Below, in pieces: positions 5,259 to 19,769 of a stretch of 64,000 bases of DNA. The stretch lies in contig NZ_CP016353.1 in assembly GCF_002240355.1 (NCBI RefSeq), positions 5,619,001 to 5,683,000 of the forward strand, read 5' to 3'. Each line of letters begins with the position of its first letter. The first letter of the stretch is position 1. Under the pieces are notes generated by a model, which made no database searches, was not told the origin of the DNA, and saw only the letters and a list, made by a program, of their open reading frames with translations. Made by a program: the position numbers and the translations under genes. The DNA comes from Prauserella marina (GTDB lineage: Bacteria > Actinomycetota > Actinomycetes > Mycobacteriales > Pseudonocardiaceae).

Positions 5259-5286
5259 GCCCCCTCTGGCGACATCTCCACGAAAG

Positions 5287-5314
5287 CGTTAACCTACTCG
5301 CGAGTAGGTTAACG
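5287..5314. promoter_or_regulatory. Perfect 28-bp palindrome, candidate operator of the acyl-CoA dehydrogenase pair
   Basis: The 28 bases are exactly self-complementary, with half-site CGTTAACCTACTCG. The site lies 28 bp after the tandem TetR stop codon and 12 bp before the GTG of the next gene, next to its GGGGAGAG ribosome site. Size, symmetry and position fit a repressor operator. The neighbouring tandem TetR protein is the obvious candidate to bind it, but this is inferred. Confidence 0.75.
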
Positions 5315-5326
5315 AAGGGGAGAGCT

Positions 5327-6658
5327 GTGGCCAGGAGAACACCACAGAGGAAGCGCGACGCGATGGGCATCGGCCTCGCGGCGCTCACCAAGCTGGCGGG
5401 CAGCAAGACCATCGAGCGCGCCGGACTGCGCGAACCTGTGCGGAACCTCGTTTCGGCCGCGACCCGCAACGGCTTCCGTGCCGTCGGTGCGGCCAACCGC
5501 CGGTTCACCGCCGCGACCCGGCTCGGCAAACCCGCGCGGCTCGGCCCCGCTCCCGACGCCGGGCTCTTCGACCTCACTCCCACCGAGGAACAGCAGCTCA
5601 TCGCCGAGACGGTCACCGAGTTCGCTGCCGAGCAACTCAGACCCGCCGCGGCGGAGGCGGACACCAAACTCGCGCCGCCCGACGGCCTGCTCGGGCGGGC
5701 GACCGAACTCGGTGTGACGCTCGTGGGCATCCCGGAGGAACTCGGCGGCGTCGGCACCGAACGTTCCGTGGTCACCAACGCGCTTGTCGCCGAAGCGCTC
5801 GCGCACGGCGACCTCGGACTGGCCGTGGCCGTGCTCGCGCCGTCCGCGGTGAGCACGGCGCTCGTGCAGTGGGGCGACGAAGACCAGCAAGCCACCTACC
5901 TCCCCGCCTTCGTCGGAGAGAACGTGCCAGCCGCCGCGCTCGCGCTACAAGAACCGGTCGCGCTGTTCGATCCGTTCCGACCCGGTCTCCGCGCGAAACG
6001 CACTCCTCGCGGTTACCGGCTCGACGGCGTGAAGTCGCTTGTGCCCCGCGCGGCACAAGCCGAACTGTTCATCGTCTCCGCCGACCTCGAAGGCAGGGGA
6101 CCCGCACTGTTCATCGTCGAATCGGGCAGTTCGGGGCTGACCTGCGAAGGCGAACCCGCGATGGGCCTGCGCGGCGCCGCGACGTCCCGGCTGCTGCTCG
6201 ACAAGGTCGAACTGCCCGCGAGCGCGCTGCTCGGCGAGGCGAAACCGGAGGTGTTCGCCGACCTCGTCCGGCTCTCCCGCCTCGGCTGGGCCGCGCTGGC
6301 CTGCGGCACCTCGAAGGCCGTTCTCGACTACGTCATTCCCTACGTCAACGAGCGGGAGGCGTTCGGAGAACCGGTCAGCCACCGGCAGGGCGTCGCGTTC
6401 CAGGTCGCCGACATCGGGATCGAACTGGAGGGCATGCGGCTCGTCATGTTGCGGGCGGCGGCGAGAGCCGAACAGGGCAAGCCCTACGCGAGGGAGGTCG
6501 CCCTCGCTCGCAAACTGGCCGCCGACAAGGGAATGCGCATCGGCAACGCGGGAGTGCAGCTACTCGGCGGGCACGGCTTCGTCAAGGAACACCCCGTCGA
6601 ACGCTGGTATCGCGACCTGCGCGCCGTCGGCGTGCTCGAAGGCATCGTGCTTGTCTGA
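5327..6658 (+). CDS. Acyl-CoA dehydrogenase, first subunit of a pair (FadE24-like)
   Basis: The 443-aa protein has an N-terminal basic segment of about 75 residues and then the ACAD fold: N-terminal helices from about residue 80 (LTPTEEQQLIAETVTEFAAE), a middle beta domain and a C-terminal FAD domain with NEREAFGEPVSHRQGVAF and LLGGHGFVKEHPVERWYRD. It ends abruptly at LEGIVLV, so it keeps the E-G of the usual catalytic Glu motif but lacks the final helix that follows in most ACADs. GTG 5327 is chosen because GGGGAG stands just upstream; ATG 5363 is an alternative. The next ACAD gene begins 18 bp later. Such pairs in actinobacteria often form hetero-oligomeric enzymes; FadE23/FadE24 of mycobacteria is the closest arrangement I recognise. 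Confidence 0.88.
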   Translation: MARRTPQRKRDAMGIGLAALTKLAGSKTIERAGLREPVRNLVSAATRNGFRAVGAANRRFTAATRLGKPARLGPAPDAGLFDLTPTEEQQLIAETVTEFAAEQLRPAAAEADTKLAPPDGLLGRATELGVTLVGIPEELGGVGTERSVVTNALVAEALAHGDLGLAVAVLAPSAVSTALVQWGDEDQQATYLPAFVGENVPAAALALQEPVALFDPFRPGLRAKRTPRGYRLDGVKSLVPRAAQAELFIVSADLEGRGPALFIVESGSSGLTCEGEPAMGLRGAATSRLLLDKVELPASALLGEAKPEVFADLVRLSRLGWAALACGTSKAVLDYVIPYVNEREAFGEPVSHRQGVAFQVADIGIELEGMRLVMLRAAARAEQGKPYAREVALARKLAADKGMRIGNAGVQLLGGHGFVKEHPVERWYRDLRAVGVLEGIVLV

Positions 6659-6676
6659 GCACGCGGAAAGGTCACC

Positions 6677-7885
6677 ATGATCAACCTTGAGGTCCCCAAG
6701 AAAGCAAGGACCCTCGTCAATCAGGCATACCAGGCCGCTGCCGAGGTGTTCCGCCCCATCTCCCGCAAGTACGACCGCGCCGAGCACGAGTACCCGACCG
6801 AACTCGACATGCTCGCCTCGCTGCTCGACGGGCTGAACACCTCTGGCGAAGGCGGTGCGGGCGCGGCCGGAATCCGCCGCAAGGACGGCGAGAAGGACAC
6901 CGGCAACCGCAACGGCGGAAACCTCACCACCGTGCTCGGCGCCATCGAGATGTGCTGGGGTGACGTCGCGTTGCTGCTGTCCATGCCGAGGCAGGGACTC
7001 GGCAACGCGGCCATCGCCTCCGTCGCCAACGACGAACAGTTGCGGCGGTTCGCGGGAACGTGGGCCGCCATGGCCATCACCGAACCCGGTTGCGGCTCCG
7101 ACTCGGCGGCGATCACGGCGACCGCGACGCGAGACGGCGACTCGTACGTGATCAACGGTGAGAAGATCTTCGTCACCGCGGGCGAGCGCGCCGACGCCGT
7201 CGTCGTGTGGGCGACCCTCGACAAGGCCAAGGGAAGGGCAGCGATCAAGTCCTTCGTCGTCGAGAAGGGAACGCCGGGATTCGAGGTGGTGCGACTCGAA
7301 CACAAGCTCGGCATCCGGGCCTCCGACACGGCGGTGCTGCGCTTCGACAATTGCAGGGTGCCCGCGGAGAATCTGCTCGGCTCGCCGGACATCGAAACCC
7401 AGAAGGGTTTCGCGGGGGTGATGCAGACTTTCGACAACACCCGCCCGCTCGTGGCCGCGATGGCGATCGGCGTGGCGCGCGCCGCGCTTGAGGAGACCGA
7501 GCGGCTGCTCGCCGAAGCCGGAGTCACGGTCGACTACGACCGGCCTGCCAACACGCAGCACGCCGCGGCGGCCGCCTACCTCGCGCTGGAGGCCGACTAC
7601 GAGGCCGCGTACCTGCTGACGCTCGAATCAGCGTGGATGGCGGACAACCGCAAGCCGAACTCGTTGCAAGCATCGATGGCGAAGGCCAAGGCGGGCCGCT
7701 CGGTTGTCGACATCACGCTGCGGTGCGTCGAACTGGCCGGCACGCTCGGCTATACGGAGGAGTTGCTGCTGGAGAAGTGGAGCCGGGACGCGAAGATCCT
7801 GGACATCTTCGAAGGCACGCAACAAATCCAGCAACTCATCGTGGCCCGCAGGCTGCTGGGGAAGACCTCGGCGGAGCTGAAATAG
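6677..7885 (+). CDS. Acyl-CoA dehydrogenase (FadE23-like), 3' end reconstituted by an integrated element
   Basis: The 402-aa protein starts MINLEVPKKARTLVNQAYQ and carries ITEPGCGSDSAAI (FAD/substrate-binding strand), GFEVVRLEHKLGIRASDTA, and ends with AKILDIFEGTQQIQQLIVAR, where the Glu of FEGT is the usual catalytic base. An AAAGG ribosome site precedes ATG 6677. It oxidises an acyl-CoA at C2-C3, passing electrons to ETF, probably together with the upstream subunit. The last 92 bases (from 7794) are repeated at 17872-17963 with two base differences, both synonymous (Arg codons AGG versus CGC). The present 3' end therefore appears to come from the integrated element, while the original chromosomal end was displaced 10 kb away. 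Confidence 0.93.
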   Translation: MINLEVPKKARTLVNQAYQAAAEVFRPISRKYDRAEHEYPTELDMLASLLDGLNTSGEGGAGAAGIRRKDGEKDTGNRNGGNLTTVLGAIEMCWGDVALLLSMPRQGLGNAAIASVANDEQLRRFAGTWAAMAITEPGCGSDSAAITATATRDGDSYVINGEKIFVTAGERADAVVVWATLDKAKGRAAIKSFVVEKGTPGFEVVRLEHKLGIRASDTAVLRFDNCRVPAENLLGSPDIETQKGFAGVMQTFDNTRPLVAAMAIGVARAALEETERLLAEAGVTVDYDRPANTQHAAAAAYLALEADYEAAYLLTLESAWMADNRKPNSLQASMAKAKAGRSVVDITLRCVELAGTLGYTEELLLEKWSRDAKILDIFEGTQQIQQLIVARRLLGKTSAELK

Positions 7886-7886
7886 C
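7794..7886. repeat. attL: left attachment site of the integrative element
   Basis: A 93-bp direct repeat shared with 17872-17964 at a constant offset of 10,078 bp. Bases 7794-7849 are identical, 7850 and 7852 differ, and 7853-7886 are identical. It covers the last 30 codons and stop codon of the acyl-CoA dehydrogenase gene. The integrase gene lies 92 bp to the right, the normal place for an AICE. The crossover lies somewhere in the repeat; the two differences cannot place it without the empty site. Confidence 0.93.
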
Positions 7887-7900
7887 TTGTATGGCAAGGA

Positions 7901-7941
7901 AAACCGCCCGTCCACTGTGTATCGCAGTGGACGGGCGGTTT
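7901..7941. terminator. Strong bidirectional hairpin terminator between fadE and int
   Basis: A perfect 17-bp stem (7901-7917 with 7925-7941) and 7-nt loop follow the acyl-CoA dehydrogenase stop codon and face the integrase stop codon. The arm begins AAACCGCCCG, so one flank gives a T-run in either direction. It lies inside the element and replaces whatever terminator the gene had before integration. Confidence 0.85.
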
Positions 7942-7977
7942 CCGTTTCCCGGGGCGCCGGAAGACCGGATTTCATGA

Positions 7978-9228
7978 TCAGGCCGCCTGTAGGCCGTCAT
8001 CCGGCTCAGGCCGTCCGAACACCCCGTCGATGGCGACGCGGGCGCGCTCGTGGCTCGACGGCACGAGATGCGTGTAGGTCCGCAGGGTGAACCCGGGGTC
8101 GGCGTGCCCGAGGTAGTCGGCCAGCTCCTTGATGGACACTCCCTGTGACAGCAGCACCGACGCGTAGAAGTGCCGCAGCGCGTGCATCCCGTCCGCCCGA
8201 TTGCGGTACTGCACCCCGGCCGCCCGGAACGCGCCCCGCCACACGACCTTGGCGAACAGGTCACCGGGGTAAAGCCGCCCCTGCTCACCGGTGATCAGCA
8301 GCCGAACGGTGACCGGTTCCCCTTCCGGCTCCCGCCACGGCAACGTGACCGCGACAGCCGGGTACCGCTCCTCGTGGTCGCGGATCTCGGCGAGGACACT
8401 TGTCGACACGGGCGCGATCCGGGTCTTGCCTCCCTTCGGTGGCGCGAACACCAACGTCCGGTCGATGACCCGGATCTGTCGTTGGATGTGCACGGTCATG
8501 TCGTCCTCATCGACGTCATCCGGCGAGAAACCCAGAATCTCCCCTTGCCGAAGACCGAGCCCCGCACCGAGCGGCACGGTCACCGAGTAACGGCCCTCCA
8601 GACCGCCGCGCACGGTGCTCACGCGTTCTTCCGGCCACACCACGACTTTCGGACTCCGGCCGACCGGACGACGCACTGTCTTGGCCCGGCACGGGTTGTC
8701 CCGGATGAGCTTGTCCTCCACGGCGGAGTCCAGGACGCCGGACAGCGCCGTGAACAACACGAGTTTGTAGTTCTCGCTGAACTTCCGGCTGTCGAGGTAG
8801 CCCAGCCACTCGCGCACCGTGGACGGCTTGATGACCCCGATGCGGAGCTCACCGAAGCGTGGGTAGATCTGGCTTTCCAACCTACTGCGCAAGACGGCCC
8901 GCGTGGCGGCATCCGGCGACTGGCCCAGCAACCAGTTCTCGGCGACCTGCCGGAACTTCTTCCGCGCCGCCTGCGGGTCGACGTACTTGCCCTCCCGCTT
9001 GTCCGACTCCATCTCGATCAGGAAGTCCTCGGCCCGCGTCTTTTGCTTGTCCGGGAAGGACTTCGACCGTTCCTCACCGTCCGGGTCGAGGTAGCGCACC
9101 TTGTACCGCTTGCCCGTGCCGTACAACTCGGTGCGCTCCATGACCGGCCTGTTCCGCCCGTTGAGGCGAATCTTGCCCGTCTCCGGGTCGCGAGCTGGCC
9201 GGTACCAGCGGTCTTGGATGTGTCCCAT
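7978..9228 (-). CDS. int: Site-specific tyrosine recombinase (AICE integrase)
   Basis: The 416-aa protein has an N-terminal arm-binding part, a SAM-like core-binding domain (about residues 85-190) and the catalytic domain. Visible catalytic elements are the first Arg in GLGLRQGEIL, the beta-hairpin Lys in PPKGGKTR, HALRHFYAS (HxxR), LGHADPGF (second His) and the nucleophile Tyr in LRTYTHLV. It would integrate and, with Xis, excise the element at the repeats at 7794 and 17872. The ATG at 9226-9228 shares one base with the stop codon of the upstream xis-like gene, giving translational coupling. Confidence 0.95.
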   Translation of the reverse strand: MGHIQDRWYRPARDPETGKIRLNGRNRPVMERTELYGTGKRYKVRYLDPDGEERSKSFPDKQKTRAEDFLIEMESDKREGKYVDPQAARKKFRQVAENWLLGQSPDAATRAVLRSRLESQIYPRFGELRIGVIKPSTVREWLGYLDSRKFSENYKLVLFTALSGVLDSAVEDKLIRDNPCRAKTVRRPVGRSPKVVVWPEERVSTVRGGLEGRYSVTVPLGAGLGLRQGEILGFSPDDVDEDDMTVHIQRQIRVIDRTLVFAPPKGGKTRIAPVSTSVLAEIRDHEERYPAVAVTLPWREPEGEPVTVRLLITGEQGRLYPGDLFAKVVWRGAFRAAGVQYRNRADGMHALRHFYASVLLSQGVSIKELADYLGHADPGFTLRTYTHLVPSSHERARVAIDGVFGRPEPDDGLQAA

Positions 9229-9413
9229 CAGGCCGCCTCCGCCGGTTCATCCGCCCAGGCGCGCACCTTGGCGGGGTTGTAGCGGAGGTGGCGGCCGATC
9301 TTGCTGACGGGTGGTCCTTCTCCGCGCCATTTCCATTGGTAGAGGGTTTTGACCGGTACGCCGAGGTAGTCGGAGACGTCCTCGATGGTCCACAAAGGTT
9401 CGATTGCTCTCAA
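9228..9413 (-). CDS. xis: Excisionase-like MerR/HTH_17 DNA-binding protein
   Basis: A 61-aa protein with a single winged-helix DNA-binding domain: WTIEDVSDYLGVPVKTLYQW followed by GRHLRYNPAKVRAW, the typical pattern of AICE excisionases. TTG 9413 is taken as start because AGGGGA lies 7 nt upstream and the residues before the domain fit; no ATG is available. It overlaps the integrase start by one base, so both are made from one mRNA. It probably bends the att DNA to favour excision. Confidence 0.88.
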   Translation of the reverse strand: MRAIEPLWTIEDVSDYLGVPVKTLYQWKWRGEGPPVSKIGRHLRYNPAKVRAWADEPAEAA

Positions 9414-9431
9414 GTAGTTTCCCCTGGTGGT

Positions 9432-11078
9432 TCAGGCTGCGAGTGGAGTTGCCGAAGTTTGGGGGTGTTGGCCTGGTGGTGGTTGTGCGGCGAGTAGGGC
9501 TCGGTCGTATTCGGCGCGCCAGGTGATGCGTTCGGCGATGGCCCGCATGAGCAGATGCGCCCTCGGCGGCACCTGCTGGTCACCGGGCGCGACCTTGCGC
9601 CAGATCAGCCGGGAGGTGTCGCGTTCGGGTTTCTCGATGCCGACTGAGGCGAGCATGTCCCGCACGAAGCGTTTGCGGTCGGCTTTGTGATCAGCCAGCG
9701 ACTTCCCCGACCACTTCCGCGACACCAGCACCCGCCGTCCGGGCAGCCCAAGCGTGGAACGCCGATGCGCCCGCCCCTTGCACCGTCCCGGGGTGGTTTT
9801 CGCATTGGCACCCAAGGGTTGGATGCCGTAGAGCAGCCACACCGCACACCGAGGCGAACACGGCGTGATCGACAGTTCCGCGTGCAACCGGTCGTGGTGA
9901 TCCCGCTGCCTGATGCTCGTGGCCTCGACGACCTCACCAGTCGACTTGGTGAGGTACTTGGTCAGATAGCCGATGTGCCGTCCGGCTTCTTCGGTGTCGC
10001 CGAGGATGCCCTTGGAGTGCACCTGCCGCCCGAAGCGCACCACATGCGCCGGTTCCTCCACCTCCTCGACGGCCTGATACCACCCGGTCAGGGGCCGCCC
10101 TGTGTCTGGGTCCACAAAGGAGCCTGTGCGGAAGTCCCACACGGGTATCTGGTCACCGTCATAAACCAGCCGATCATGGTTGGGCCACCAGACCTGGTGA
10201 TAGGTGGCCGCCGTGACCAGCCGGATGACCTCGTGCGAAATCGCCCCACGGATGGCGGTGTGCAGGTGGGGTGCTGCGCGTTTCTGGGGTTCGACGGTGG
10301 CGAAGTACTGCACATCCCAGCCCACGACGCGGCGCAGGTTCTGCCACCACCGATCCACCAACGACGAGAAATGCACCGCATCCCGCGCCGCCCGCCGATA
10401 GTCATAGCTACCCGAATCCACCGGAGTGCCGTCCTCACGCACCCGGCCGTAGGTGTCACAGGTCAGCGTGACAAACATCGAGGGCCGGAACCTGCCCGCG
10501 AACTCCCGCCCGACCGTGGTCTTGGCGACCTTCCTTGTCGGCAAGTCGGGAGCGTCCTGCCGCCGCTTCGTGGAGCGCTTCGTGGGCTGCTTGGCCGGAA
10601 GCTCCGGTGAGGGCAGACGGCCGCGCATCCCGAGGGCGCGCAATTCATCGTCAACACCCCGAATCTCCTCCCGTAGCTCCTCGGCATCGCATTCGGCGCC
10701 GTCGCCGAGTGCCTGCTGGTAGGCACGGACGAGGTCGGCGCGGAACTCCATCAACTCCGTCTGCGCCTGGCTGGGCGATTCCGCGGTGAAGTCCGGTTCC
10801 TCGGTCAGGTGCCAGCCTTCGCGGCATTGGGTTTGCCGCAACGCTTTCGCCTTCTTCGCACACGGCAGGCACACGGATTCGACCGTCGAGCCACACGGTA
10901 CGGCGACGTAGCGCAGTTCGCCGGTGTCCGGATCACCCACCTCCATCGTGAACGGCCGCACACACACCCCGTGCTTCTCCGCCGTCGCCTTGATGACATC
11001 CGCCGACAGCGGTTGCCGCATCCTCTGCGCACGAGTTTGTCCCGCAACATCAGCGGGGAACGAAGCGACCTCGGTCAT
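9432..11078 (-). CDS. repSA: AICE replication initiator protein (RepSA/RepAM type)
   Basis: A 548-aa basic protein that resembles rolling-circle initiators of pSAM2-like elements. Two Cys pairs near residues 68-95 (VPCGSTVESVCLPCAKK) suggest a zinc-binding head. The HUH-like metal motif is seen as APHLHTAIRG around the middle, and a candidate nucleophile Tyr lies in GYLTKYLTKS. It would nick the excised circle at its origin to allow replication before transfer. Its ATG (11076-11078) overlaps the tra stop codon as ATGA, so both genes are coupled. The gap to xis is only 18 bp, giving one long minus-strand operon from the tra region to int. Confidence 0.88.
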   Translation of the reverse strand: MTEVASFPADVAGQTRAQRMRQPLSADVIKATAEKHGVCVRPFTMEVGDPDTGELRYVAVPCGSTVESVCLPCAKKAKALRQTQCREGWHLTEEPDFTAESPSQAQTELMEFRADLVRAYQQALGDGAECDAEELREEIRGVDDELRALGMRGRLPSPELPAKQPTKRSTKRRQDAPDLPTRKVAKTTVGREFAGRFRPSMFVTLTCDTYGRVREDGTPVDSGSYDYRRAARDAVHFSSLVDRWWQNLRRVVGWDVQYFATVEPQKRAAPHLHTAIRGAISHEVIRLVTAATYHQVWWPNHDRLVYDGDQIPVWDFRTGSFVDPDTGRPLTGWYQAVEEVEEPAHVVRFGRQVHSKGILGDTEEAGRHIGYLTKYLTKSTGEVVEATSIRQRDHHDRLHAELSITPCSPRCAVWLLYGIQPLGANAKTTPGRCKGRAHRRSTLGLPGRRVLVSRKWSGKSLADHKADRKRFVRDMLASVGIEKPERDTSRLIWRKVAPGDQQVPPRAHLLMRAIAERITWRAEYDRALLAAQPPPGQHPQTSATPLAA

Positions 11079-12574
11079 GCCGCAGCACCCCCGCTCTGCA
11101 TCCCGTCCTGTGTTGCAGGGAAGGGCAGGACGTCAGCACGGTGGACCGGTATCCCGGTCACATACGTCACCAGCTCATCCAAGTTGCTGTCGGTGACATG
11201 GAAAGCCCGCGCCCGAAACGGTTCCCGCCGACCGTCTTCCTTCGCCCACCCCACGCCAGGGGTGTGTTCGGAAATCTCGTGCGCGGTGGCGCCCCGCTCC
11301 CGGACACCATCCCCAAGAACCATGTCCACCTGTGCCTTCTCATCGCAGCGCATCGCGATCCGGGTGGAGAACAGATGCCGGAACGACACAACCTCCTTAC
11401 GCGGATCCTGAAGTAGCCCGAGGACGCAGACACCGGGCGCGCGGCCCTGACTGGTGATCGTTTGCACGGCCCGATTGGCGCGCTCGCGGAGGTTCTTGTC
11501 GGTTTGGTAGGCGATCACATCCGCCAACTCATCCACCACGAGGAGAATGAACGGGTCCCCCGTCTCCGGGGTCCACGCCCGCAACCTGCCCCGATATCGC
11601 GACGCGCGTTCCTTCACCGTGGCCGCGATCTCCTCCAACAACGCCACGGCATCCGGGCCGTTGTCGAACACCACCCGGCCAAACACCTCCGGCGCCTGAC
11701 CCAGTTCCATACCACCCTTCGGGTCAATCCCCGCAAGCCGCACCCTGCCTGAGCGGATCAGCGGGACCAAAGCCCACACGATCGACCACAACAACGAACC
11801 CTTACCCGCACCCGACACCCCCACCGTCAGTACGTGGGTGCCCAACAGCCGCAGCCGCCACGGCTTACCCGTCTCCGTTTGCCCGACCGTCACGCGCTTG
11901 AGATCCACACTGGCCGCATCGTCGGCAAGCCCGGGCGCGGGAACCGGCCGCACGAGCGGATCACGATGCACCAAATCCAATTCCAGCCGACCCGGTTTCA
12001 ACACCCGCACCCGACACGAGCGGGCCTTGAACGCATGCGCGAGGCCGGAGGCGTGTAGCTCCCACTGCTCCGGAGCCTGCCCCTTCACCATCCGCACCCG
12101 AACCCGGTCCCGCCAACCCTCAGCACGAACCCGACCAAGCTTCGGCCGGTATTCCTTGCCACGACTGGTCTTCACCAAATCCGACAGCCGCATCACCATC
12201 CGCCACTGACACCCATACACCGACAACCGCCGAAACTCCGTACGCGGCTGCGGGACCACGAACCGACCAAACGACAAGGGATGCCGCCACCGCCACAACC
12301 CCAGCACCACAACCACGGCCAGCAACGTGAAAGCCAGCACCCACCAACCAGCAGCCGCCTGAACCCAACCCACCAGCACCGCCACCGCGACCGTCAGCGG
12401 ATACCGCACCACCACCCGACCAAGCTGGAACAACAGCCAGCACACGAGCCAGGTGAGCACGACGGGCGAGATGATGACCTTGACCCAGCGCGGAAGGAGA
12501 GTCCACCACGGCAGCCGAGGCCGCGCGATCTCCAGCGGTGCCGGGTCGACCCACCGCGAACCGTGAACGCTCAT
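11075..12574 (-). CDS. tra: FtsK/SpoIIIE-type DNA translocase, AICE transfer protein
   Basis: The 499-aa protein has two membrane-spanning stretches near residues 33-95 (VIISPVVLTWLVCWLLF and AGWWVLAFTLLAVVVVLGLW) and then an FtsK-like ATPase domain: Walker A in VGVSGAGKGSLLW, Walker B in FILLVVDELADV, and a GRAPGVCVLGLLQ arginine-finger region. In AICEs this one protein moves double-stranded DNA between mycelia. ATG 12574 is chosen because it overlaps the stop codon of the 39-aa zinc protein (ATGA) and gives the usual MSVHGSRW start; the frame is open further upstream but overlaps that small gene. Confidence 0.9.
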   Translation of the reverse strand: MSVHGSRWVDPAPLEIARPRLPWWTLLPRWVKVIISPVVLTWLVCWLLFQLGRVVVRYPLTVAVAVLVGWVQAAAGWWVLAFTLLAVVVVLGLWRWRHPLSFGRFVVPQPRTEFRRLSVYGCQWRMVMRLSDLVKTSRGKEYRPKLGRVRAEGWRDRVRVRMVKGQAPEQWELHASGLAHAFKARSCRVRVLKPGRLELDLVHRDPLVRPVPAPGLADDAASVDLKRVTVGQTETGKPWRLRLLGTHVLTVGVSGAGKGSLLWSIVWALVPLIRSGRVRLAGIDPKGGMELGQAPEVFGRVVFDNGPDAVALLEEIAATVKERASRYRGRLRAWTPETGDPFILLVVDELADVIAYQTDKNLRERANRAVQTITSQGRAPGVCVLGLLQDPRKEVVSFRHLFSTRIAMRCDEKAQVDMVLGDGVRERGATAHEISEHTPGVGWAKEDGRREPFRARAFHVTDSNLDELVTYVTGIPVHRADVLPFPATQDGMQSGGAAA

Positions 12575-12690
12575 CGAGCCCCACCCCGCCCCCTGGTCGG
12601 GACGTCGAGGGGAAGTCGACCAGCGCAGGCCGCGCACTCCTTGTCTCCAACAGCAAGCCGGGCGAACCGCTTGCATGATTCGCATCGCAT
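12571..12690 (-). CDS. 39-aa CxxC...CxxC zinc-ribbon protein upstream of tra
   Basis: A short frame from ATG 12690 to TGA 12571 encodes 39 residues beginning MRCESCKRFARLAVGDKEC and containing a second CAAC. Two CxxC pairs 12 residues apart are the spacing of a small zinc ribbon. The stop codon overlaps the tra ATG (ATGA), the same coupling used throughout this operon. No strong ribosome site precedes it, and the tra frame is also open here, so this remains a prediction. Small Cys-rich proteins before tra are common in AICEs. Confidence 0.6.
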   Translation of the reverse strand: MRCESCKRFARLAVGDKECAACAGRLPLDVPTRGRGGAR

Positions 12691-12918
12691 CCGGGTGACC
12701 CGGGTTGACACCGATCCCTGATCGTTGTCTATCGTTACCAATGTCTACTCCGTCTGGTGTGGACAGCGCAGAAGCGGCAAGGTTGGTAGCCAGGTTCCGC
12801 TTCTGCGCCTTACGTTTCAAAGTTCCGTTGCCAGGACGTGCTTCATCGCCACACGACCCGGCGTGCGTTAAATGTCTAAAATAGACTTCGTCGTTGACCT
12901 TTTCGATTTCTTGGTCTA
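12691..12918. promoter_or_regulatory. Non-coding gap before the tra-rep-xis-int operon, with repeated TGTCTA motifs
   Basis: No gene is seen in these 228 bp. They contain TGTCTA at 12726, 12742 and 12873, the last forming an inverted repeat GTCTA-AAA-TAGAC (12874-12886), plus a GGTCTA at 12914. The region is AT-richer than its surroundings and lies immediately upstream of the transfer operon, so a transfer repressor (KorSA-like) could bind here. This is inference. Confidence 0.4.
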
Positions 12919-13191
12919 CTACCGTTGCGTCAACTCCTCCGCTTTCCGCCGCTCACGCTCTGCCCAATACAGCGCCTCGTGGTGGTGGCCTCGGTCGGTC
13001 TCCGCGACCGCCGCGTACACCGCCGCACTGCGCCGGTAGAACTCTTGCCGAGCCGCAGACGAAGCACCCTCACTGGGAACCAGCGCACCAAGCGCCTCGT
13101 GCGCCTGCCTTAACGTGCGCGCCTGCTTCGCCAGTCGCCACCCTTTCTGACTCAACGATTCACCACCGTTACTCCTGCCCATTACGCTCAC
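12919..13191 (-). CDS. Hypothetical AICE protein, 90 aa
   Basis: A small charged helical protein ending in ALYWAERERRKAEELTQR; no known domain recognised. GTG 13191 is chosen because it overlaps the stop codon of the preceding gene (GTGA); ATG 13182 is the alternative. It belongs to a three-gene minus-strand cluster (13505, 13191, 14008) of accessory proteins upstream of tra. Position fits a mating-pair or spread-type accessory protein, but nothing in the sequence proves it. Confidence 0.62.
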   Translation of the reverse strand: MSVMGRSNGGESLSQKGWRLAKQARTLRQAHEALGALVPSEGASSAARQEFYRRSAAVYAAVAETDRGHHHEALYWAERERRKAEELTQR

Positions 13192-13505
13192 CCGCGTCGA
13201 CGAGTGCCAGCCCGCTGAGGTGGACGCATCGATGCCATTCCGCACGAACGAGCGGAACGGGCCTGCCAGTCCTGCGCCTGTTCTTCGAACGCCTGCGCCG
13301 CCGACTCCAACGCCGCCAACATCCACCAGGACAGCTCCGCATGACCAGCGAGCCCGCGCCAGGCCACCGCGACGGCCCAGGAAGCCGAGGCCATCTCCTG
13401 AGCCGTCGCCGCGTCCACCTCACGAGTCCGAGCCGCCAGGTCCGAAGCCGCGCCATAACGCCGGTACGCCTCTTCCCAAGCCCGGACCAACTTCTTCGCC
13501 ACCAT
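13188..13505 (-). CDS. Hypothetical AICE protein, 105 aa
   Basis: A mostly helical, Ala-rich protein (KKLVRAWEEAYRRYGAASDL, then a Trp-rich stretch AVAWRGLAGHAELSWWML). No recognised family. ATG 13505 follows GGAGG with good spacing; a GTG lies one codon upstream. Its stop codon overlaps the next gene's GTG by 4 bp, and it is 32 bp downstream of the 13538-14008 gene, so the three form one operon. Confidence 0.65.
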   Translation of the reverse strand: MVAKKLVRAWEEAYRRYGAASDLAARTREVDAATAQEMASASWAVAVAWRGLAGHAELSWWMLAALESAAQAFEEQAQDWQARSARSCGMASMRPPQRAGTRRRG

Positions 13506-13537
13506 CACGACGCCTCCAGTCAGGCGCTACCGCGCGC

Positions 13538-14008
13538 TCACGCGGCCTTGACGGTGGACTCGCCCGCCGAAGCGGACGACTTCCCGGACTGAGCCGATCG
13601 ACCACCACCGGAAGTGGCGCTCTTGAAGCTGGTCGCCCGGAACACATAGGACTGGTACTTGAACTCGCCGTTCCCTGCCACGCGCGGTTCTGCGGTCAGC
13701 CCGGCCAGTTCGATCGGCCGCATACCCGGCAGCGCCTCCGACGTCGTCGGCACCGGCTGCACATCAGCCAGCAACGTGACCTCGTAGGACGCCCGCTTGG
13801 CGTTCGGCTCGGTCGGGTCGGTGACCGTGACCTTCCACTGCCGCTTTCCGGTCAGCTCATCGATGCGCTGCCGAGTGGGCTTGCCCATCGCACGGTCCTC
13901 GCGCGACTGGTACTCGTTGTCCGGCGACACCTCACCGACCATCACCAGCCCCTGCGGAAACGCGTCATCGAACTCGATCGGGAATCGGTACCCCTTGGGG
14001 ATAGCCAT
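13538..14008 (-). CDS. AICE-conserved hypothetical protein, 156 aa
   Basis: The protein begins MAIPKGYRFPIEFDDAFPQG and looks like a compact beta-rich domain over about residues 1-130, followed by a Ser/Gly/Ala/Lys-rich tail. ATG 14008 follows an AAAGGG site. I do not recognise an enzymatic motif. It is the first gene of the minus-strand accessory cluster and divergent from the regulator at 14200, so its promoter lies in 14009-14199. Proteins of this sort are recurrent in AICEs near rep and tra, which suggests a role in replication or transfer. Confidence 0.65.
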   Translation of the reverse strand: MAIPKGYRFPIEFDDAFPQGLVMVGEVSPDNEYQSREDRAMGKPTRQRIDELTGKRQWKVTVTDPTEPNAKRASYEVTLLADVQPVPTTSEALPGMRPIELAGLTAEPRVAGNGEFKYQSYVFRATSFKSATSGGGRSAQSGKSSASAGESTVKAA

Positions 14009-14199
14009 AGCTGTTGGAACCCTTTCCTCATCCGTCCGGCCGCACGGTTCGGCGGCACACTCCTAGATTCGGCCAGATGTGGGTCCCGTCACGACACCGC
14101 GCATGTCGCGTCTCGAACTTCTGACACTCACCGTGTCTCGTCTTTGTCTCATCCGAGTGGTACGGTCGTCTCCTCACCGACGTCACGGGGGTTGAGTCG
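14009..14199. promoter_or_regulatory. Divergent promoter region inside the AICE
   Basis: This 191-bp gap separates the leftward transfer/replication genes from the rightward regulator gene. It contains a pair of TGTCTC motifs (14131 and 14143) and a possible -10 TACGGT (14161-14166) for the regulator. The layout is that of a regulatory switch, but no clear operator symmetry was found. Confidence 0.4.
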
Positions 14200-15081
14200 A
14201 TGGCCGACAAGCCGATCGTGCTGAAAGTCCTATTGCGACAGAAGCACCTGCAAGGGCACCGCGCGTTCTGCAAGGAGTACGACAAACTCGCGAAGCAGAT
14301 CGAGCCCGATCTCGTAGGGAGCTGGCCGAGCAAGGCGCAGTTCTACCGCTGGCTCTCGCGCGACATTCAGGGACTGCCGTACGCGCATCACTGCCGGATT
14401 CTGGAAGCAATGTTGCCGGGGTGGACCGCCGAACAGCTGTTCCAGGAGCACACGGGCGGTATCGAATTCGTACCCGAACCCCCGAACTCCGCCAGCACGG
14501 GCCGCCCGGCGAAGCCACCGCAGCCCACCATGCAGGGCATGGCCGACGTGACCGCCGTGTTCCCGAGTCGACCAGCGTTCTCGCACGAGATTCCACCGCA
14601 CAAGCTCTTCGACAGCGCCGAGCAGATCAACATGGTCGGCCTGTCGCTCAACCTCTTGTGCCAGAGCTACCCAGACCGATCCCTGCTCGACCTCCTCGAG
14701 TCCGGAACCGTGGTCCAGTGCCTGTTCCTCTCTCCGGACGGGCGATACATCAAGGAACGCGAGCAGGAGGAGGCACATCCCCAGGGAGTGCTCTCGACGC
14801 TGACCACGCTGAACATCCAGACGCTGCAACGCCTGCACGGCAAGCTCTCGCCGGAGGCACGCGGAAACCTGCGCATCCGCACCTACGACGAGGCCGTCCG
14901 GTTCAACATCACCGTGGTCGATGACGCGACCTGTGTCGTGCAGCCCTACCTACCGGATGCTCGGGGAGTGGAGTCCCCGACGCTGGTGATCGAGAAGCAG
15001 CCGGGACCGCCGGGCCTGTTCGAAACGTTTTCGCAGGTGTTCGAGTCGATGTGGGCACGCAGTACGGAGGTCGCCACGTGA
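14200..15081 (+). CDS. AICE regulator: N-terminal HTH-like domain plus DUF5919/PLD-like C-terminal domain
   Basis: The 293-aa protein has a putative DNA-binding domain over the first about 80 residues (SKAQFYRWLSRDIQGLPYAH, with HHCRILEAML) and a proline-rich linker around 90-110. The C-terminal domain (about 130-275, SGTVVQCLFLSPDGRYIKE and RTYDEAVRFNITVVDD) resembles the DUF5919 domain found in actinomycete regulators. Such genes recur in AICEs together with a small hydrolase gene. The stop codon overlaps the GTG of the next gene (GTGA), so regulator and phosphatase-like enzyme are made together. It may control excision and transfer of the element. Confidence 0.65.
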   Translation: MADKPIVLKVLLRQKHLQGHRAFCKEYDKLAKQIEPDLVGSWPSKAQFYRWLSRDIQGLPYAHHCRILEAMLPGWTAEQLFQEHTGGIEFVPEPPNSASTGRPAKPPQPTMQGMADVTAVFPSRPAFSHEIPPHKLFDSAEQINMVGLSLNLLCQSYPDRSLLDLLESGTVVQCLFLSPDGRYIKEREQEEAHPQGVLSTLTTLNIQTLQRLHGKLSPEARGNLRIRTYDEAVRFNITVVDDATCVVQPYLPDARGVESPTLVIEKQPGPPGLFETFSQVFESMWARSTEVAT

Positions 15082-15875
15082 AGGACCTGAATGCCTTGCT
15101 CGCGATCGCACAGGAAGCCGCGAACATCGGTGCGAAGCTCATGACGACCTCAGCGCCGGGAACCGTTCGCGCCAAGGGTGACCGCGACTATGTGACCGAG
15201 CTGGACATCAAGATCCAGCACGAGATCCAGGACCATTTACGCCGCGCGACCCCGGATATCGACTTCCTCGGCGAGGAAGAAGGCGGGGGCACGATCGATG
15301 AGAGCACCGAGCACGTGTGGGCGCTCGATCCGATCGACGGCACCTCGAACTTCGCCCACGGCATTCCGCTCTGTGCGACCTCGCTAGCCCTGGTCCACCG
15401 AGGCGAGCCCGTAGTGGGTGTCATCGTCGCGCCGTTCCTGAACCTGCGCTATCACGCCACCAAGGGCGGCGGAGCGTACTGCAACGACAAGCCCATCCAC
15501 GCCAGCGAGACCACCGACCTCAGCCGCGCCATCGTCTCAATCGGCGACTACGCCACCGGGCCCGGAGCCGAGGAGAAGAACCGCCGCCGCTTCGCTGTCA
15601 CGCAGGCGTTGGCCGAGAACGTCGAGCGGGTGCGCATGTTCGGTGCGGCGTCGTTGGATCTCGCCTGGGTGGCCGAAGGCCGCACGGACGCATGCGTGAT
15701 AATGTCCAATAAGCCGTGGGATATGGCATCCGGCGGATTACTCGCACGCGAGTCATCCGCATCGATTACGGATATAGACGGGTTGCCACACGACTTCAAA
15801 TCGCGAACAGTTGTCGCAACAACGGGCCACCTCAAGAGACCACTGGTTTCTATTTTTGGAAACCCTAATATATGA
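15078..15875 (+). CDS. Inositol monophosphatase family protein carried by the AICE
   Basis: The 265-aa protein has the FIG/IMPase metal-binding set: FLGEEEGGG (about residue 65), WALDPIDGTSNFAHGIP (the DPIDGT motif, about 90) and KPWDMASGG (about 215). The family hydrolyses small sugar, inositol or nucleotide phosphates using Mg2+. GTG 15078 is chosen because GGAGG stands just upstream and it overlaps the regulator stop codon; ATG 15051 is the alternative. Base composition drops in the last about 170 bases, where codons become AT-rich, a sign that cargo was joined here. Substrate unknown; the coupling suggests a signal-molecule role in element control. Confidence 0.87.
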   Translation: MKDLNALLAIAQEAANIGAKLMTTSAPGTVRAKGDRDYVTELDIKIQHEIQDHLRRATPDIDFLGEEEGGGTIDESTEHVWALDPIDGTSNFAHGIPLCATSLALVHRGEPVVGVIVAPFLNLRYHATKGGGAYCNDKPIHASETTDLSRAIVSIGDYATGPGAEEKNRRRFAVTQALAENVERVRMFGAASLDLAWVAEGRTDACVIMSNKPWDMASGGLLARESSASITDIDGLPHDFKSRTVVATTGHLKRPLVSIFGNPNI

Positions 15876-15891
15876 ACCCGGAATGGGCAGA

Positions 15892-17289
15892 TCAACCCGC
15901 CAACCTGGACAATCGCAGCGTTAGTCCCTTGTCAATCCTTTCGGCAATTTCAGCCGCACTGTCCACGATGCCACCGAACCGCACCCTATCTTCCACAACG
16001 GCATAAACATTCCTACCATTACCGGGAGTTACGCACACCTCCCGCATGCCCCCCACTTCTGAGGGATGAGCCTGCCGGTAAGGCCTCGTTCGATAACTTC
16101 CTGCACGCACAGAAAAGAACAGCGACGGATAGCGAACCAAGCTATCAACATGGCCGCTTATGTTTACCGACGAGTACCCAACCCATACCAGAAGATCCAG
16201 GCTAGCCTTAGAAGCAACAAATAGCCACGTTGCACCTGAGGCATCCTGCTCACTGAGCAGGCCAAAGGATTGTACATCTAGCGCACCCATATCATGGATG
16301 CGAAAGCGACGGAGCTGCAGTTCGCCAAATAGACGCGAAGAGAAATCGTTGAAAGACGATTGCCACGAGCGAAAAACGTTGGACTTTTCGCGACCAATGT
16401 CGTCACGCAAGATACGCCTCAAAAAATGCGGCTTGTCTATCTCTCGCCCGAAGCGCTTAATAGCGTCCAAAAATATTCCCGTGAGCGGCAAGATGTCACC
16501 GCCAGTATCACTATGACCAAGTGCGTCAATGTAGATAGCACGCTGGGTATTGTGTGCGATGATAGCAGGAGGAAGTCCCACCTTCGCCAAGATGAGGTTA
16601 GCTATCAGTCGCGCAAGACGACCATTTCCATCCTCGAACGGATGGATATGTGTCAGCCACGCATGCACAATAGAAGCTTTTATTGTTCCCGGCATGGCCG
16701 TATCACGCGCCATCCACGATACCAACTCATGCATGGCCTGCGGCGTATCACTTGGGAAATGCGGCTCATGCACTCCATCTCCCGATATCGTCACGTGCCA
16801 ATGCTTGTAGCGCCCAGCAAATCTTTCACCCAACGAAATCATCTCGTGCATTTGACGTATATCTGCCTCCGTCATCGGACGCCCAGATTTCATGTTCTCC
16901 AACAGAGACTCACCGAGCACCTTGGCGCCATGCAGACCCAATACTTCTACCAAATGCGCATCGCGGCGCAAACCATCAACAAAGGCGTGGTCATGCAAAA
17001 TTCCAACCGCAGAGGAAATCCGGTCCGCATGGTTCGATTCCAGAATCGTTGCCGTCTGAGGCAATGAGGGACCAAGGCCTTCGATTGAGTTGCTTTCGTA
17101 CACCTCGCGAGCGCGCTGACCGCGATAAAAATCCGCAAACGCGCCAGCATCCATAAGCTTCCGCGCGGCGCTCTGCATCTTCGCGGAGACACGCGCCTCC
17201 ACATCACGTACACGCGTAAGTTCCGCTGCTACATCAGAGCCGTCCGGCAGCGAGTAGGGACATCCGCTCAGGAAGTCTTCCACGGACAT
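15892..17289 (-). CDS. Fic-family protein with N-terminal self-inhibitory motif (class II)
   Basis: The 465-aa protein contains the Fic core HIHPFEDGNGRLARL (HxFxDGNGR, catalytic His and phosphate-binding loop) around residue 215. The inhibitory-helix motif (S/T)xxxE(G/N) appears as SNSIEG near residue 68, N-terminal to the core, which defines class II. Fic enzymes usually transfer AMP from ATP to Ser/Thr/Tyr of a target; the inhibitory Glu blocks ATP binding until released. The C-terminal part (about 300-465) is beta-rich and unassigned. ATG 17289 has GGGAG upstream. The gene is clearly AT-richer than its neighbours and convergent with the IMPase gene, so it looks like acquired cargo. Confidence 0.9.
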   Translation of the reverse strand: MSVEDFLSGCPYSLPDGSDVAAELTRVRDVEARVSAKMQSAARKLMDAGAFADFYRGQRAREVYESNSIEGLGPSLPQTATILESNHADRISSAVGILHDHAFVDGLRRDAHLVEVLGLHGAKVLGESLLENMKSGRPMTEADIRQMHEMISLGERFAGRYKHWHVTISGDGVHEPHFPSDTPQAMHELVSWMARDTAMPGTIKASIVHAWLTHIHPFEDGNGRLARLIANLILAKVGLPPAIIAHNTQRAIYIDALGHSDTGGDILPLTGIFLDAIKRFGREIDKPHFLRRILRDDIGREKSNVFRSWQSSFNDFSSRLFGELQLRRFRIHDMGALDVQSFGLLSEQDASGATWLFVASKASLDLLVWVGYSSVNISGHVDSLVRYPSLFFSVRAGSYRTRPYRQAHPSEVGGMREVCVTPGNGRNVYAVVEDRVRFGGIVDSAAEIAERIDKGLTLRLSRLAG

Positions 17290-17871
17290 CAGATAGCTCC
17301 CTTCAATACGAACGTCAGCCTTCTGCCGAACTTGGCTCTATGGGATCAAGTCGCGCCGCCGACGGCGGCGCGCACGTCGCCTCCCGACGCCGTGCTCGGG
17401 CGGCGGGCCGCACCCATCCCGGCACGCCGGGCTCCCGCTCCGCTACGCCCGGCGGCCGGTCGGTGCGGCCCACAGCGCCCGGCACGGGTCGCCAGCCGCC
17501 AGCGGCGCGCTTGTCCACGTCGAGCAAGCCCCAGCCCCTCTCCAGCGTCGTATCTCATCGGTCGGTCACCGCGAGTGATCTGTTACGGGCTCCCTCCGCC
17601 CCGACGCCTGATCGTGACAACGGCCGGTCACACCGCGTCAAGGGCGCTTCGCGTCGCTGCGCGATCTACGACCCTTGACACGGCACAACCGGCCGCGTGT
17701 TTGGCTTCATGTCGGGATGGAGGAGGTGGGCTGGGCAGGCTCGCGCCAGGCCGTCTCCAGGCCGTGAGAGGTCGAGCAGACCCGAGTAGCCGCGAGAAAC
17801 GACGGCAAACGTCTCCGCAGGTCAGAGGCGGTTTTTAGCTCATCTCGCCAGGTGGCCGCCGACCGGCAGCG
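17290..17871. other. Non-coding GC-rich region of the AICE next to attR
   Basis: No convincing gene is seen in these 582 bp. Apparent frames here have poor codon use. The main structure is the long imperfect inverted repeat at 17621-17695. The region lies at the non-integrase end of the element, a place where a transfer or replication origin could be. Confidence 0.5.
17621..17695. repeat. Long imperfect inverted repeat, candidate origin or transfer site of the AICE
   Basis: Two 24-nt arms (17621-17644 and 17672-17695) match at 19 of 24 positions around a 27-nt centre. The outer 8 bp (CGGCCGGT/ACCGGCCG) and inner 8 bp (GTCAAGGG/CCCTTGAC) are perfect. The centre holds a further small stem TCGCG/CGCGA (17649-17664). 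Such an extended hairpin in a non-coding part of an AICE fits a single-strand origin, a nick site or a transfer locus; which one cannot be told. Confidence 0.55.
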
Positions 17872-17964
17872 AGATCCTGGACATCTTCGAAGGCACGCAA
17901 CAAATCCAGCAACTCATCGTGGCCCGCCGCCTGCTGGGGAAGACCTCGGCGGAGCTGAAATAGC
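17872..17964. repeat. attR: right attachment site with displaced fadE 3' end
   Basis: The second copy of the 93-bp direct repeat. It preserves the last 30 codons and TAG of the acyl-CoA dehydrogenase (reading ILDIFEGTQQIQQLIVARRL), detached from any gene. Two bases differ from the attL copy, both silent. It marks the right boundary of the element and likely includes the original chromosomal end of the gene. The stretch just after it forms a small hairpin AGCCC-ACAA-GGGCT (17962-17975). Confidence 0.93.
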
Positions 17965-18014
17965 CCACAAGGGCTGGAGCTTCGCCGAGCGGCAAGCCCC
18001 CCGCCCGAGCCGCC

Positions 18015-18245
18015 GAGATCTGCGCTGGGGCCCGCGAGATCTGCGGTCCGGCCGCCGAGATCCGCCCCCAGGTCGTCGAGATCCGCGCTGAGGCCGTCGA
18101 GATCCGCACTGGGGTCGTCGAGTTCCGCGTCGGGGCGGGCGAGATCCGCAATCCCGCACGCGAGATCTGTGGCCGAGGACGCGAGAGCTGCGCTCGGGCG
18201 GGCGAGATGCGCATTCGGATATACGAGTTGCCCGTTCGCGCTGGT
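18015..18245 (-). repeat. Array of eleven imperfect 21-bp tandem repeats (minus orientation)
   Basis: Units start every 21 bp at 18015, 18036, 18057, 18078, 18099, 18120, 18141, 18162, 18183, 18204 and 18225. Each begins GAGATCCGC or a close variant, followed by a variable GC-rich half. The period equals seven codons. A minus-strand frame reads through as heptads of the form xISxxxx, but no start or ribosome site supports a gene. The array starts about 50 bp outside attR, so it belongs to the chromosome rather than the element. Confidence 0.85.
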
Positions 18246-18453
18246 GGGCCTCGGCTGCCAGCGCGCGGGCAGGCGAGGTCCCGCTCAGGGACGGAGGCAA
18301 AGCCCCACCGGCGGCCGCGAGCCACCCACGGCAGCTGACCCGCCGACCAATGGTCACCGTCCGACGTTTTCGGCTACTCCGAGTGAGAAGAGGGCTGGTC
18401 GCCGCGCGATGCGAACGGCGCCCTCGCGGCAACTGTGGCACGTCAAGGACCTG

Positions 18454-18579
18454 AATGTGCATCTCGACAACCTGGACGCGCATCTCGACAACCTGAACGC
18501 GGATCTCGGCGCCCCGAACGCGGATCTCGGCGACTCCACCGCGGAACTCGACGGCTTGCGCGGGGGACTCGCGGGGCGG
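18454..18579 (+). repeat. Second 21-bp repeat array, opposite orientation
   Basis: Units start at 18454, 18475, 18496, 18517 and 18538, with a weak sixth at 18559. The core AACGCGGATCTCGACAACCTG-type unit is the reverse complement of the 18015 array. One plus-strand frame reads it as Leu/Asp heptads (DAHLDNL, NADLGAP) and stops at 18583-18585. The two arrays thus face each other across about 200 bp of unassigned sequence. The unit preceding the array contains a 19-nt stretch (18439-18457) that matches 15075-15093 at 18 positions. Confidence 0.82.
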
Positions 18580-18651
18580 GAATAGGCAACCCGGACCGCC
18601 CGTTACCCTAGATAGTTGAGCGCACAAATTCTTCCAAGCAAGGGGATTGCC

Positions 18652-19755
18652 ATGCAGTTCGGGATCTTCACCGTCGGTGACGTCACGACCGATCCCACCA
18701 ACGGGACGACGCCGAGCGAGTTCGAGCGCATCAAGGCCATGGTCGCCATCGCACTCAAGGCCGAGGAGATCGGCCTCGACGTCTTCGCGACGGGCGAGCA
18801 CCACAACCCGCCATTCGTGCCCTCGTCGCCGACCACCATGCTCGGCTACATCGCCGCTCGCACCGAGCGGCTGATCCTCTCGACCTCCACGACGCTCATC
18901 ACCACCAACGACCCGGTGAAGATCGCCGAGGACTTCGCGATGCTGCAAAACCTCGCGGACGGCAGGGTCGACCTCATGCTGGGCAGGGGCAACACCGGCC
19001 CGGTGTACCCCTGGTTCGGCCAGGACATCCGCATGGGCATCCCGCTCGCGATCGAGAACTACGCCCTGCTGCACGAACTGTGGCGCAAGGACGTCGTCGA
19101 CTGGGAAGGCCGTTTCCGCACGCCGCTGCAAGGTTTCACCTCGACGCCGCGCCCGCTGGACGGCGTCCCGCCCTTCGTCTGGCACGGCTCCATCAGGAGC
19201 CCGGAGATCGCGGAACAGGCCGCCTACTACGGCGACGGTTTCTTCGCCAACAACATCTTCTGGCCGAAGGAGCACTTCATGCGGCTCATCGGCCTCTACC
19301 GCCAGCGCTACGAACACTACGGACACGGCTCGGCCGACCAGGCCATCGTCGGACTCGGCGGCCAGGTGTTCATGCGCAAGAACTCGCAGGACGCGGTGCG
19401 CGAGTTCCGGCCCTACTTCGACAACGCTCCCGTCTACGGCCACGGCCCTTCGCTTGAGGACTTCACCGAGCAGACGCCGCTGACCGTCGGCAGCCCGCAA
19501 CAGGTGATCGACAAGACGCTGAGCTTCCGCGAATCCTTCGGCGACTACCAGCGCCAGCTTTTCCTGATGGATCACGCCGGTCTCCCGCTGAAGACCGTTC
19601 TCGAACAACTCGACCTGCTCGGCGAAGAGGTGCTTCCGGTGCTGCGCAAGGAGTTCGCGGACCGCAGGCCCGCTCACGTCCCGAGCGCGCCCACTCACGC
19701 CTCACTGCTCACCACCAAGCAGAACAACACCGAAGCAGCCGTCGTCGGCAACTGA
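18652..19755 (+). CDS. LLM-class flavin-dependent monooxygenase (CE1758-like)
   Basis: The 367-aa protein has the bacterial luciferase-like TIM-barrel pattern: MQFGIFTVGDV start, GLDVFATGEHHNPPF, and LADGRVDLMLGRGNTGPVYPWFG. The family uses reduced FMN and O2 to oxidise an organic substrate. ATG 18652 is preceded by AAGGGG at good spacing. The next gene, 14 bp later, encodes an FMN reductase that would supply FMNH2, forming a two-component monooxygenase. The pairing matches the CE1758/CE1759 gene pair described in Corynebacterium. Substrate not deducible. Confidence 0.9.
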   Translation: MQFGIFTVGDVTTDPTNGTTPSEFERIKAMVAIALKAEEIGLDVFATGEHHNPPFVPSSPTTMLGYIAARTERLILSTSTTLITTNDPVKIAEDFAMLQNLADGRVDLMLGRGNTGPVYPWFGQDIRMGIPLAIENYALLHELWRKDVVDWEGRFRTPLQGFTSTPRPLDGVPPFVWHGSIRSPEIAEQAAYYGDGFFANNIFWPKEHFMRLIGLYRQRYEHYGHGSADQAIVGLGGQVFMRKNSQDAVREFRPYFDNAPVYGHGPSLEDFTEQTPLTVGSPQQVIDKTLSFRESFGDYQRQLFLMDHAGLPLKTVLEQLDLLGEEVLPVLRKEFADRRPAHVPSAPTHASLLTTKQNNTEAAVVGN

Positions 19756-19769
19756 CCAGGAAGGCAGCA

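Follow-up and report, generated by a model that had tools for sequence, protein, structure and literature searches.

A 10.1-kb integrative and conjugative element at the 3' end of an acyl-CoA dehydrogenase gene in Prauserella marina, and related integrases at acyl-CoA dehydrogenase gene ends

A stretch of 64,000 nucleotides from Prauserella marina (contig NZ_CP016353.1, positions 5,619,001 to 5,683,000; the window) was analysed for a 10.1-kb actinomycete integrative and conjugative element (AICE), which its own tyrosine integrase has very probably inserted into the 3' end of an acyl-CoA dehydrogenase (ACAD) gene, with the gene kept whole. Judging from sequence comparison, ACAD 3' ends appear to be a class of sites used by related AICEs, which confirms and widens the observation of the initial annotation.

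The element and its empty site

Repeat search of the window returned a direct repeat of 93 nt at 7794–7886 and 17872–17964, with a spacing of 10,078 and an identity of 91/93; the next-best non-tandem direct repeat in 5000–20500 was 37 nt long at 73%. The left copy of this attachment (att) repeat, attL, is the 3' end of an open reading frame (ORF) of 402 aa at 6677–7885, which it completes in frame as an ACAD, and the ORF matches Acyl-CoA_dh_1 (E 1.5e-34) as well as Acyl-CoA_dh_M and Acyl-CoA_dh_2. The two differences from the right copy, attR (7850 A/C and 7852 G/C), turn AGG into CGC, Arg both ways, and are silent. The initial annotation had described a repeat bracketing AICE genes, with a left copy that completes a dehydrogenase frame and differs from the right copy by two silent changes, and this was confirmed: the copies enclose int, repSA and an FtsK-type tra together with a xis-like ORF. 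The target, the att features and the core genes are as follows.

6677–7885, + strand: ACAD of type A, the target gene, its end supplied by the left repeat (ORF list, family profiles)
7794–7886, + strand: attL, left 93-bp repeat, encoding the ACAD stop and the final ~30 residues (repeat search, alignment)
7798–7815, + strand: 18-bp block, putative strand-exchange site, holding the Glu codon of IFEGT at 7811–7813 (attL = attR in 20/21 elements)
7893–7949, no strand: inverted repeat separating ACAD and int, likely a two-way terminator carried in by the element (repeat search, alignment)
17872–17964, + strand: attR, right 93-bp repeat, the displaced gene end (repeat search, alignment)
7978–9228, − strand: int, tyrosine recombinase, 416 aa (Phage_integrase, E 5.1e-11)
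9228–9413, − strand: xis-like ORF, 61 aa, excisionase-type helix-turn-helix (PHROG excisionase, E 1.4e-9)
9432–11078, − strand: repSA, pSAM2-type replication initiator, 548 aa (RepSA, E 1.6e-101)
11075–12820, − strand: tra, FtsK/SpoIIIE-type transfer protein, 581 aa (FtsK_SpoIIIE, E 2.9e-8)

The defining proteins of an AICE were recovered above their profile cut-offs: a site-specific recombinase (Phage_integrase, 43.1 bits; cut-off 27.1), an AICE-type replication initiator (RepSA, 341.1 bits; cut-off 34) and an FtsK/SpoIIIE-type transfer protein (PF01580, 33.9 bits; cut-off 24). In the TraB equivalog model tra scored 37.8 against the 800 required, and the xis-like ORF lay below the NCBIfam cut-off for TIGR01764 (22.4 vs 28.8 bits). 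ARAGORN found no tRNA gene in the 64-kb window, and the att site is therefore not in a tRNA gene, as it would be in a tRNA-targeting AICE.

Four genomes of the genus were compared, that of the window (G000) and three others (G001, G002 and G003). G002 and G003 carry two att copies, 10.5 and 11.1 kb apart, and integrases 92–93% identical to the window's. G001 has a single att copy, any integrase match being at 51% or less; of the neighbouring genes it keeps the left one (84%) and one on the right (75%). The left flank of G001 aligns with the attL side, and the inverted repeat after its stop codon is also found behind attR, not attL, in G002 and G003. A different inverted repeat stands behind attL in all three elements (window, G002 and G003; 7893–7949 in the window), and because of this shared position the element seems to have placed its own terminator behind the ACAD gene. 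An empty site with one repeat copy, which the initial annotation had proposed to look for, is thus present in one relative, G001.

Of 297 family genomes, 175 gave a match to the type A gene end (E 1e-8). Within the examined stretches a second att copy was found in eleven genomes (G000, G002, G003, G094, G290, G231, G238, G222, G127, G079 and G174). In G127, G079, G174 and G222 the two copies stand 1.0–3.9 kb apart and enclose, instead of a full gene set, short relics of such elements that contain cargo or pieces of int. The case named beforehand as contrary to an AICE, two copies at equal spacing without int, rep and tra, was not seen in the examined stretches. No second att copy in direct orientation was found in the fetched stretches of the two-match genomes G013, G129, G163 and G110; this examination covered the two-match genomes other than G052, G154, G210, G211 and G243.

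Related integrases and ACAD gene ends

The window integrase was compared with the 297 family genomes (167 with a match; loci taken for the best 30) and with named species genomes (best 80 of 549). This gave 113 sampled loci after removal of 11 twins, L015, L016, L029 and the window included. At an integrase identity of ≥55%, a line drawn after a first look at the loci, an ACAD motif lay ≤300 bp from the int end in 25 of 34 distinct loci. The rest comprised four loci with the motif at 560–1408 bp, four with none in the fetched stretch and one that stops at a contig end. Below 55% the motif was found in 0 of 78 testable loci, one further locus being short. Two of the ≥55% loci counted as lacking the motif are L086, with a broken int ~1.2 kb from an ACAD-A end, and L056, where the motif lies ~2 kb away.

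Four types of target ACAD were distinguished, A to D, the window's being A. Identity is 31–39% between A, B and C/D and 74–75% between C and D. A tree was made of 87 of the 109 different open integrases, with a midpoint root and SH-aLRT values from a quick search. Integrases shorter than 340 aa or with stops in the matched stretch were excluded. Also left out were two thirds of the unlabelled rows below 46.5% identity and the twin loci, and with these the integrases of G002 and G003. A set of 20 rows joined ACAD-A (5), ACAD-B (13) and two unresolved rows with an SH-aLRT of 99, and a surrounding set of 33 rows added C (3) and D (3), with nine unresolved rows in all. Type A requires two or more changes on the starred branches of this tree, and the target paralogue has therefore switched within the integrase clade. 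Related integrases adjoining ACAD 3' ends and grouping in the tree are what defines the proposed ACAD-targeting class, and on this basis it appears to be a genuine one. The new integrase-target class guessed at in the initial annotation is supported in that integrase identity tracks the ACAD target and the tree agrees with it; it has to be amended in that several paralogues are used, not one gene.

Both repeats could be paired in 21 of the 34 loci, with spacings of 9.4–14.0 kb. The repeat starts ≤3 nt from the K codon of K-I-x-x-I-[F/Y]-E-G-T in 20 of these 21 and 10 nt before the K codon in L066. In medium-chain ACADs the Glu of this EGT motif acts as the catalytic base. All 21 repeats extend to the stop codon, those of L060, L063 and L100 well beyond it; they are 70–158 bp long (70–97 bp in 19/21) and mostly coding. 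Differences between attL and attR across the 21 elements were synonymous in 144 cases and nonsynonymous in 32, with ~23% synonymous expected from random single changes, and 16 of the 32 lay in the first codon, at the repeat edge. As these changes are not independent of each other, the ratio was used as a measure in preference to the p-value. The equal anatomy of the 21 elements, together with the single-copy site in G001, bears out the suggestion that a coding-compatible end is kept at the ACAD 3' end.

In 20 of 21 elements attL and attR are identical over a single 18-bp block near the 5' end of the repeat, and seven-base windows toward the 3' end are identical in just 4–9 of 21. AGAT-N7-ATCT stands at the start of the block in all 21 attL copies. 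The seven bases are CCTGGAC, CCTCGAC or TATGGAC in type A, CACCCAG or CACGCAG in type B, CTTCACC in type C and CTACGAC in type D. The motif AAGATC-N6-ATCTWCGARGGNAC was found in 275 of the 297 family genomes, usually one to three times each, and a reversed-motif control gave no match among the rows shown for the 297 genomes. It occurs twice in the genome of the window, at the occupied type A site and in a free type B ACAD.

In G231 (L167, L168) the ACAD-A 3' end is occupied by a ~36-kb prophage (terminase, major head, tape measure) with an integrase 34% identical to the window's. Its ends repeat 105 bp of that gene end at 94%, and the site is therefore common to AICEs and at least one prophage.

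Strand exchange and alternative explanations

In the proposed mechanism, Int would recombine attP with attB within the 5' portion of the repeat, in the DNA encoding K-I-x-x-I-[F/Y]-E-G-T. After insertion the remaining ACAD coding end and the terminator would come from the element and the enzyme would stay whole, a restoration of the gene end that parallels that of tRNA genes under tRNA-targeting integrases. Strand exchange is placed inside the 18-bp block (7798–7815 in the window) because attL and attR are identical there in nearly all elements. The AGAT and ATCT arms are common to all ACAD types used; the seven bases between them vary mainly by type, and would be the overlap that decides which paralogue is entered. 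It is further conceivable that the integrase clade has adopted an active-site signature of an enzyme family as a portable att site. The shared arms would be read in every ACAD type and the seven bases would pick the paralogue, with at least two paralogue changes and use of the same gene end by a distantly related prophage integrase. This broader proposal is put forward tentatively, as a plausible possibility falling a little short of probable.

Several observations weigh against these interpretations. The crossover is not placeable from the window alone, its attL and attR being near-identical throughout; in L093 the two differ within the 18-bp block, and AGAT-N7-ATCT is present in only 14 of 21 attR copies. 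Asking which side, attL or attR, carries the native 3' part by comparison with 20 single-copy ACAD-A ends and G001 gave mixed results, and the synonymous bias may reflect selection on both copies at other times. The window flank past attR does not align with the inverted repeat of G001, the match of the site running via G002 and G003. In its examined stretch, G001 lacks the gene that starts at 18652 to the right of attR and has relatives at the corresponding position in G002 and G003. As to the class, L051 and L069 (≥55%) are without an ACAD motif in the fetched stretch, and the count leaves out partial integrase matches at ≥55%, for example in G005, G052, G089, G131, G183, G238 and G291.

The G001 comparison, taken alone, puts the switch between the native and the incoming sequence near 7842–7849. 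Strand exchange would then lie in the 3' half of the repeat and the element would bring only the last dozen codons: two synonymous sites of G002 and G003 agree with G001 in attL but differ from it in attR, sites further 3' agree with it in attR, and in the window the two copies are nearly identical in both halves of the repeat. These two sites are, however, third codon positions in one relative, and it is the 5' block that is nearly always identical across the 21 elements. In 8 of 21 pairs, moreover, the stop triplets are unlike, L057 being one of these because its attR lacks a stop at that point, and an exchange in the 3' half is considered quite improbable.

The element could also be an immobile relic retained for supplying the ACAD end, and decayed two-copy relatives without a full gene set do exist (G127, G079, G174 and G222). 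The window int, rep and tra are nevertheless open reading frames, and the DNA of the element is 86% identical to that of the G002 element over 7.8 kb. The Fic gene at 15892–17289, for which none of the 20 related loci compared gave a match, is absent from the G002 and G003 elements, and the cargo has therefore turned over; a relic is considered unlikely. The near identity of the two window copies would also be expected if the repeat were a segmental duplication of the ACAD end, with the AICE genes between the copies by coincidence. Such an origin is scarcely credible beside 21 loci with int next to a completed gene, across ACAD types just 31–39% identical, and the single-copy site in G001. Integration by the element's own integrase at the ACAD 3' end accordingly remains the preferred reading.

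Other gene ends, known systems and cargo

In none of the scanned loci did ARAGORN find a tRNA gene ≤900 bp downstream of the integrase gene, a few tRNAs lying farther off. For 20 loci without an adjoining ACAD, the convergent ORFs were assigned in Pfam to pyridine nucleotide-disulphide oxidoreductases (3), HlyIII (3), glutamine synthetases (2), five other families and, in seven cases, none. The pyridine nucleotide-disulphide oxidoreductase targets are probably dihydrolipoyl dehydrogenase. As some integrases of lower similarity thus point at protein genes other than ACADs, AICE integrases that use coding genes are likely to form a wider family with further target classes.

Integrases were seen to converge on probable dihydrolipoyl dehydrogenase genes in L073, L074 and L108, on HlyIII genes in L071, L072, L078 and L081, and on glutamine synthetase genes in L104, L106, L153, L156 and L166. 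Several of these loci show direct repeats, and further members were assigned by similarity.

Comparison with known systems was based on excerpts of the cited papers. Tyrosine-integrase AICEs are in their vast majority found in tRNA genes, with the entire pSLS subfamily as the exception (Ghinet et al. 2011, PMC3218068). That subfamily likewise has AICE tyrosine integrases outside tRNA genes, its target being unnamed in the excerpted text; the words acyl-CoA and dehydrogenase are absent from the main text of PMC3218068, and a pSLS record was not among the 13 plasmid records matched at E 1e-12. The initial annotation had stated that AICEs normally use tRNA genes and had called a beta-oxidation gene unusual as an attachment site; a position outside tRNA genes as such was, however, noted for pSLS in 2011. 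The pSAM2-type AICEs share with the window element the order int-xis-repSA beside att, an FtsK-type tra, a size of ~10 kb (10.9 kb for pSAM2, PMC3364876) and an att repeat that restores the target 3' end. They target tRNA genes, whereas the window element targets a protein-coding ACAD gene and has a mostly coding repeat.

The dusA-associated integrases (Farrugia et al. 2015, PMC4482086) are also tied to one enzyme gene, with islands that bring a replacement gene end and with the paralogues dusB and dusC used more rarely; they use the 5' end of dusA, in Proteobacteria and with varied islands, whereas the ACAD class uses 3' ends and consists of actinobacterial AICEs. SGI1 at the thdF 3' end (PMC2297512) has a coding 3' end (the last 18 bp) as attB, with two substitutions relative to attP, but it concerns a single gene, 18 bp and a mobilizable island of Enterobacteria. 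A Mycobacterium abscessus prophage with attB-21 in fadE (PMC9934374) has an ACAD gene as attB; unlike the window element it uses a serine integrase, at about position 280 of 1140 bp, and the gene is likely inactivated. Insertion at a phiC31 pseudo-attB in a Streptomyces rimosus ACAD gene is likewise described as disrupting or likely disrupting the gene (PMC7890619). Among the open-access literature matches listed, none reported an AICE, ICE or phage located at an ACAD 3' end. Integrase matches in plasmid and phage collections were all below 60% identity, the best listed rows being 44% and ~30%. Protein-gene ends are already known as targets of other integrases, and the use of ACAD 3' ends is a new addition to them.

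The findings suggest that a protein-family signature could act as a tRNA-like docking sequence, and they make the change of target of a site-specific integrase between paralogous genes testable. With the motif in so many of the sampled family genomes, the ACAD ends are also candidate sites for integration vectors. The family of Prauserella, the Pseudonocardiaceae, is known for antibiotic producers.

The remaining genes of the element lie between tra and attR.

13538–14008, − strand: possible small element gene, 156 aa (translation only)
14200–15081, + strand: DUF5919 protein, possibly a regulator (family profile, locus comparison)
15051–15875, + strand: inositol monophosphatase-family protein, paired with DUF5919 in five related elements (family profile, locus comparison)
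15892–17289, − strand: Fic/DOC domain protein, cargo (family profile, locus comparison)

The genes for DUF5919 and the inositol monophosphatase-family protein are paired in L015, L016, L047, L055 and L057 as well as in the G127 remnant. A second integrase in the window's own genome (L076, G000:C1:1005288-1006517) is 53–54% identical to the first and accompanied by a 32-bp direct repeat; the ORF convergent with it had no Pfam family. To the right of attR, at 18009–18218 and 18443–18579, head-to-tail units of 21 nt with GAGATC cores face an inverted set, the arms being 74% complementary over 137 nt. The Fic-domain protein resembles the PADLOC SoFic model (E 7.9e-22).

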